From Candidatus Poribacteria bacterium (GTDB lineage: Bacteria > Poribacteria > WGA-4E > B28-G17), in NCBI GenBank assembly GCA_021162805.1, contig JAGGXZ010000088.1, positions 1-38,520 of the forward strand: a stretch of DNA of 38,520 nt. Reading direction: 5' to 3'. A program made the position numbers and the translations under genes. Below are positions 5,571 through 5,955 of the stretch, in pieces; the stretch's first letter is position 1; every line of letters begins with the position of its first letter. Under the pieces are notes generated by a model. It saw only the letters and a program-made list of their open reading frames with translations. It was not told the origin of the DNA and did no database searches.

Positions 5571-5861
5571 TCAATAGCCGTTGTAAAAGTTATTTCCGGT
5601 CTCGTCCCGGTAACCATCCTCTTCGCTGTTACTATCACAACCGTCAGGATTAGAGACTGGGAAGATAAGGTCAGAATCGGAAACACCATCATCGATCGTA
5701 TCCAAATCCTGGGTCAGGTCGTTCCAGATGTCCATGATCTGATCGGCGACGTTGGCGATGGCCACGACCATAGCCAGCCCGATTAATCCGGTTAGAATGG
5801 TATATTCAATTAATGCCTGACCCTTCTGATCTTTAAGGTGGTGTGTTATGGCTTTCATCAT
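5571..5861 (-). CDS. Flp/Fap-type (type IVb) pilin-like protein
   Basis: 96 residues. The short basic leader ends at Gly14. It is followed by Q-A-L-I-E-Y, so that Glu and Tyr fall at mature positions 5 and 6, the GxxxxEY cleavage and assembly signature of Flp prepilins processed by a TadV-type peptidase. Residues 15-45 form the hydrophobic N-terminal helix. The tail (46-96) is very acidic and Asn/Gly rich and longer than in most Flp pilins (about 50-70 aa), so it may be a surface-exposed or minor variant. The start may be the first or second of two adjacent ATG codons. No other tad/flp assembly genes are in the window. A sigma-54-like promoter sits 50-65 bases upstream, suggesting control by an enhancer-binding activator. 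Pilin type is a confident call from the signature; function in adhesion or piliation is inferred. Confidence 0.83.
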   Translation of the reverse strand: MMKAITHHLKDQKGQALIEYTILTGLIGLAMVVAIANVADQIMDIWNDLTQDLDTIDDGVSDSDLIFPVSNPDGCDSNSEEDGYRDETGNNFYNGY

Positions 5862-5907
5862 CTCTTAACCCCCAGTTCAGGCGTCGATGATTTTTCATCC
5901 CTACCTT

Positions 5908-5926
5908 TGGCAAGAGATGTGCCAGG
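5908..5926 (-). promoter_or_regulatory. Sigma-54 (-24/-12) promoter for the pilin gene
   Basis: Read on the minus strand the site is CTGGCAC, four bases TCTC after an A, then TTGCC. The -24 TGGCAC element (5919-5924) and the -12 TTGC element (5909-5913) have exactly the 5-base separation of the TGGCAC-N5-TTGC consensus; only the final base (C instead of A/T) departs from it. Transcription would start near 5898, giving a leader of about 37-40 bases before the pilin ATG. It lies in an otherwise gene-free 170-base gap. Confidence 0.75.
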
Positions 5927-5929
5927 ATG

Positions 5930-5955
5930 AAAAACCTCCGATCCACGGGGTTTTT
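5930..5955 (-). terminator. Probable terminator of the trmJ operon
   Basis: On the minus strand, AAAAACCCC (5955-5947), an 8-base loop and GAGGTTTTT (5938-5930) form a 9-bp stem with one G-U pair ending in five T. It lies 77 bases beyond the trmJ stop and just upstream of the sigma-54 promoter, separating the trmJ operon from the pilin. Its T-run is also one arm of a second inverted repeat (5891-5900 with 5925-5934) that brackets the promoter. Confidence 0.6.

Follow-up and report, generated by a model that had tools for sequence, protein, structure and literature searches.

Sigma-54 control of the type IVa pilin gene pilA is well known in bacteria. In Pseudomonas aeruginosa and Geobacter sulfurreducens, pilA is under the control of sigma-54 and PilR, and an RpoN element lies before the gene (PMC2725144). 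For Flp/Tad pilins the reported regulators include FliA, two-component systems and others. In Bdellovibrio bacteriovorus the flp1 and flp2 genes are controlled by the flagellar sigma factor FliA, with flp4 under a different, unidentified regulator (PMC5430801), and in Pectobacterium the sigma-54 activator VasH had no effect on the flp/tad genes (PMC3767616). We found no described case of sigma-54 control of Flp/Tad pilins in the open-access papers searched.

Here we analysed a 38,520-nt stretch of a Candidatus Poribacteria genome (denoted the window), in which a -24/-12 element within an inverted repeat precedes a Flp-like pilin gene. We consider it very probable, from the comparison of sequences within and between genomes, that the element at 5910-5924 is a genuine RpoN promoter of this lone pilin, which would belong to a scattered and mostly sigma-54-dependent pilin set, and that the repeat is incidental. 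Of the preliminary description, the sigma-54 promoter is supported and the reading of the repeat as an operator is not. Taken singly the element is an ordinary sigma-54 promoter; its interest lies in the scattered family of Flp-like pilins that appears to be mostly under sigma-54.

A -24/-12 element before a lone pilin gene

The window pilin carries the processing motif KG/QALIEYTILTGLIGLAMVVAIA, of the G/XXXXEY type, followed by a hydrophobic helix and an acidic tail (Table 1). It matches the Pfam family Flp_Fap (PF04964) with 18.2 bits, below the gathering cut-off of 32.2, and in a profile comparison its best PDB relatives, with E values of 0.08 or worse, are PilA and pilins of the Flp/geopilin type. 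Because the assignment draws on the motif, this weak profile match and the genome context only, we call the protein Flp-like rather than a curated PF04964 member. A compact Tad cluster encoding RcpC/CpaB, a secretin, a TadZ-like protein, TadA, TadB and TadC is located on another contig (C145), and neither a pilin nor a strong forward sigma-54 element was found in it. Since the cluster is separate and pilin-less, the gene was rightly described as a lone pilin.

Table 1. Features of the pilin locus, in positions of the window
Feature	Position	Strand	Basis and remarks
-24/-12 element TGGCAC-ATCTC-TTGC	5910..5924	-	GG 5923-5922, GC 5911-5910; consensus identity and analogues at other pilins
Predicted transcription start, A	5898..5898	-	12 nt downstream of -12 C5910; inferred from spacing
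Predicted 37-nt 5' leader	5862..5898	-	Sequence; possible Shine-Dalgarno GGGGG 5873-5869
Inverted paralogue Shine-Dalgarno and start codon, AGGTGGTGTGTTATGGCT	5836..5853	+	Within pilin N-terminal coding sequence; candidate micro-inversion
Inverted repeat TTTTTCATCC-N24-GGATGAAAAA	5891..5934	.	Exact 10-bp arms 5891-5900/5925-5934 around promoter; no such arms at other sigma-54-like sites
Flp-like (type IVb/IVc) pilin, 96 aa, motif G/QALIEY, acidic C-terminal tail	5571..5861	-	Six genome homologues, weak Pfam match
Perfect 17-bp inverted repeat, 8-nt loop	5518..5559	.	Between convergent 3' ends of yifB/comM and pilin; -25 kcal/mol, z -6.2

The TGGCAC-N5-TTGC sequence reported on the minus strand upstream of the pilin is indeed present as an exact consensus match (5924-5910), with GG at -24 and GC at -12 in the correct spacing, and its first T lies 63 bp from the pilin ATG at 5861. 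The spacing from the -12 C also predicts a start that agrees with the one near 5898 proposed earlier. No sigma-70 promoter was found before the window pilin on the minus strand. A search of the 4.35-Mb genome for the exact pattern gives 16 occurrences, and 9 for a reversed control, so that a given same-strand upstream region of 300 bp would contain it by chance with a probability of about 5e-4. With a less strict weight matrix, whose weights are our approximation of the published consensus rather than a trained matrix, the score of the window site is equalled in 1.4% of random 300-bp stretches; this null was drawn from selected loci and is conservative, because the pilin loci are themselves among them. 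The case for the window element as a promoter is moderate when it is considered alone, and becomes compelling once the paralogues described below are added.

The preliminary description had called for rpoN and its activators to be sought in the genome, and both were found. There is one RpoN open reading frame, with a Q-rich N-terminal region and the RpoN box ARRTVNKYR, which differs from ARRTVAKYR by one residue, and more than 20 sigma-54 activators (bacterial enhancer-binding proteins, bEBPs; PF00158 proteins) are encoded, most of them with GAFTGA. RpoN-RNA polymerase would wait on the element as a closed complex, and an AAA+ activator would be needed to open it and start a transcript at approximately 5898. 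At the other end of the gene, the 17-bp inverted repeat between the convergent genes is likely to be a bidirectional terminator.

Several further perfect TGGCAC-N5-TTGC sites in the genome are also located shortly upstream of genes. Perfect elements lie close before genes resembling those for a small heat-shock protein, a thioredoxin, a Clp ATPase and a secreted protein (L016, L019, L020 and L024; names given by eye), and a stress-related sigma-54 regulon is possible.

Pilin paralogues and a candidate activator

Six Flp-like pilins, including the window copy, are found on six contigs of the genome; a weaker pilin profile match (E 3.6e-6, minus strand) lies beside the copy on contig C40. A strong -24/-12 element lies before five of the six: the window copy, C168 (TGGCACCCTCCTTGC, 59 bp upstream), and C40, C59 and C69 (TGGTATGCNNNTTGC, 84-154 bp upstream). 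The TGGTATGCNNNTTGC pattern occurs five times in the genome, three of them before these pilins, and its reversed control does not occur. The remaining pilin, on C45, has no -24/-12 element and is preceded instead by a sigma-70-like TTGACT-N17-TATAAT (L065); the pilins may therefore be expressed under different conditions.

A second Ca. Poribacteria genome, from another family (G004, JAJRTO01), carries such elements before six pilins (C383, C267a, C95, C337, C358 and C236), which answers the earlier proposal to look for the element before the pilin genes of relatives. Five of its seven scored pilins have the element; C236, whose gene is incomplete and lies at the end of a contig, was excluded from scoring. 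The two exceptions are g4C17, which has a sigma-70-like promoter, and g4C267b, which lies in tandem. Over the 13 scored pilins with upstream DNA in the two genomes, 10 (five from each) have a score that no more than 3.1% of random stretches of 300 bp attain, the individual values being 1-3%. The promoters of C40, C59 and C69 are those of recent paralogues and are not independent, and even when they are counted as recent copies, elements at 10 of 13 pilins are far outside chance. Together with RpoN and the more than 20 bEBPs, their presence at most paralogous pilins in two families supports the sigma-54 promoter proposed for the window pilin, and sigma-54 is probably the switch for most pilus subunits of this little-studied bacterium. 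This pilin family is present in 2 of 85 genomes of the phylum, the two discussed here; none was detectable in the sole same-family genome examined, which is 76% complete.

The C40, C59 and C69 pilins share a further upstream signal, the dyad TGCAA-N4-TTGCA, which occurs only seven times in the 4.35 Mb. Four of these occurrences precede the three pilins; related dyads occur upstream of several G004 pilins. A gene for a PspF-like bEBP of 356 residues ends approximately 340 bp before the C40 pilin (L063:6783-8494, G000 C40). Its product contains a sigma-54 AAA+ domain with GAFTGA and a Fis-type helix-turn-helix (HTH_8), and the receiver domain is absent. Judging from its position, the dyad is likely an enhancer bound by this protein, which would then probably activate the C40, C59 and C69 pilins from upstream. 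The bEBP gene is preceded by its own -24/-12 element, TGGCATATCTATTGC, and its orthologue in genome G001, 76% identical, has CGGCACACCGTTTGC at a similar distance upstream. The activator gene may thus itself be sigma-54-driven, in a two-tier cascade.

Before the window pilin, the best match to the dyad has 9 of 14 positions, which is background level; sites of other bEBPs would not be recognisable in this way. With the dyad absent, the window promoter would need another route: it may respond to a different one of the 20-plus bEBPs, have a site that has diverged, or be activated with no specific enhancer. We tentatively propose, as a model that we hold somewhat less probable than its negation, that a receiver-less, RpoN-dependent PspF-like activator drives unlinked pilins through TGCAA-N4-TTGCA, that the other sigma-54 pilins, including that of the window, answer to other activators, and that whichever activator is active would set the composition of the pilus.

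The inverted repeat and the pilin leader

The element is bracketed, as had been reported, by two exactly complementary repeat arms, TTTTTCATCC (5891-5900) and GGATGAAAAA (5925-5934), which are separated by 24 bp; read on the minus strand from 5934 to 5891, the order is TTTTTCATCC-TGGCACATCTCTTGC-CAAAGGTAG-GGATGAAAAA. The preliminary description suggested that these arms could form an operator that blocks or positions the holoenzyme; in such a model a dimeric regulator would bind at -36..-27 and -2..+8. In its favour, the arms are centred within approximately 5 bp of the element, and only about 0.5% of random points in sampled DNA are flanked by exact arms of 10 bp or longer. A half-site, GGATGAA, is also found in the dyad AGGATGAA-N6-TTCATCCT upstream of the promoter of the C40 bEBP gene. 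This dyad was rejected as a regulator site common to the window and the C40 activator: it has one exact and two weak copies in the genome, and the half-site orientation is opposite. No second copy of the repeat was found in the genome, and it was rejected as a genome-wide operator or a mobile repeat. None of 28 other sigma-54-like sites, in this genome and a relative, has arms longer than 7 bp, so that the repeat was also rejected as a common feature of such sites, and it is absent from all the pilin paralogues. One armed case is unsurprising, because 29 sites were examined at a background of about 0.5%, and three other such repeats occur elsewhere in the 38.5-kb window. We therefore regard the operator as quite unlikely, and the flanking repeat as most likely incidental to the promoter.

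The leader of the window pilin differs from those of its paralogues. The paralogues' leaders share a common end, AGGTGGTGTGTTATG, made of the Shine-Dalgarno sequence and the start codon (with one difference in C69). In the window the corresponding sequence, AGGTGGTGTGTTATGGCT, lies inverted inside the gene, where it matches the C40 pilin leader exactly over 18 bp, that of C59 over 15 bp and that of C69 over 12 bp. Aligning the window leader to those of the paralogues with gaps gave at most a marginal signal, in which only C40, on the same strand, and C69, inverted, scored slightly higher than shuffled sequences; it was the ungapped comparison that established the 18-bp inverted match. These matches indicate that a micro-inversion gave the window pilin a new start codon and leader peptide (MMKAITHHLKDQ, versus MxKALERLRxx in the paralogues). 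With the original start inverted, the window pilin would begin at the new ATG, with GGGGG as its ribosome site.

The leaders of C40, C59 and C69 contain a hairpin just before the ribosome site, with a stem of the GAUGAACCGA...UCGGUUCAUC type (AUGRACYGA...UCGGUYCAU; L062:7190-7330, L063:8125-8195, L064:4580-4712), a possible mRNA-stability or translation element. The window leader lacks it and folds weakly (z about -1 to -2), in a structure that extends to the start codon. The missing hairpin, the missing enhancer dyad and the inversion of the original ribosome site and ATG could mean that this pilin copy is losing its function after the micro-inversion, and that the element is a decaying promoter. 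Such decay seems unlikely to us: the open reading frame is intact, the processing motif is kept, identity to the C59 pilin is 77%, the GGGGG is usable as a Shine-Dalgarno sequence and the match to the -24/-12 consensus is perfect.

The pilin had also been thought to be switched separately from the trmJ operon. This is a reasonable inference, but no terminator was detected on the minus strand between the pilin and trmJ, its same-strand neighbour 170 bp upstream, so that read-through from trmJ is possible. Were it the source of pilin expression, the repeat would be a hairpin in the read-through RNA and the -24/-12 match an accident. As minus-strand RNA the repeat does fold well (-23 kcal/mol, z -4.9), in parallel with the hairpins that stand right before the start of the C40, C59 and C69 pilins; the predicted transcript from 5898 would hold just one of its arms. 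Such an account has to attribute to chance a perfect element at promoter distance, and it does not fit the recurrence of the element at unlinked pilins whose upstream genes differ. We consider it very unlikely, and favour transcription of the pilin from its own RpoN promoter.

Comparison with described systems

One detected Tad cluster and six scattered pilins, mostly with sigma-54 elements, suggest that in this uncultured phylum it is the choice of subunit, and not the assembly of the machine, that may be regulated. The enhancers of NtrC-type activators have the form TGCACC-N(4-5)-GGTGCA. Like them, TGCAA-N4-TTGCA is a short dyad with TGCA ends, located upstream of -24/-12 promoters; it differs from them in sequence, and is found at three paralogues and absent before the window gene.

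A close parallel is pilA, likewise a single pilin gene with a -24/-12 promoter to itself, served by RpoN and by an activator of the NtrC family (PMC2725144). In contrast to pilA, the Poribacteria pilin is Flp-like (Tad type), its genes are six and dispersed, and the linked activator has no receiver domain. In Pectobacterium, too, the Flp pilus genes have a dedicated regulator, which there is an adjacent two-component system (PMC3767616). Bdellovibrio bacteriovorus resembles the Poribacteria case in having several Flp pilins, some of them off the tad operon and under separate control (PMC5430801); whereas FliA serves flp1 and flp2 there, the signal common to the Poribacteria pilins is that of sigma-54.
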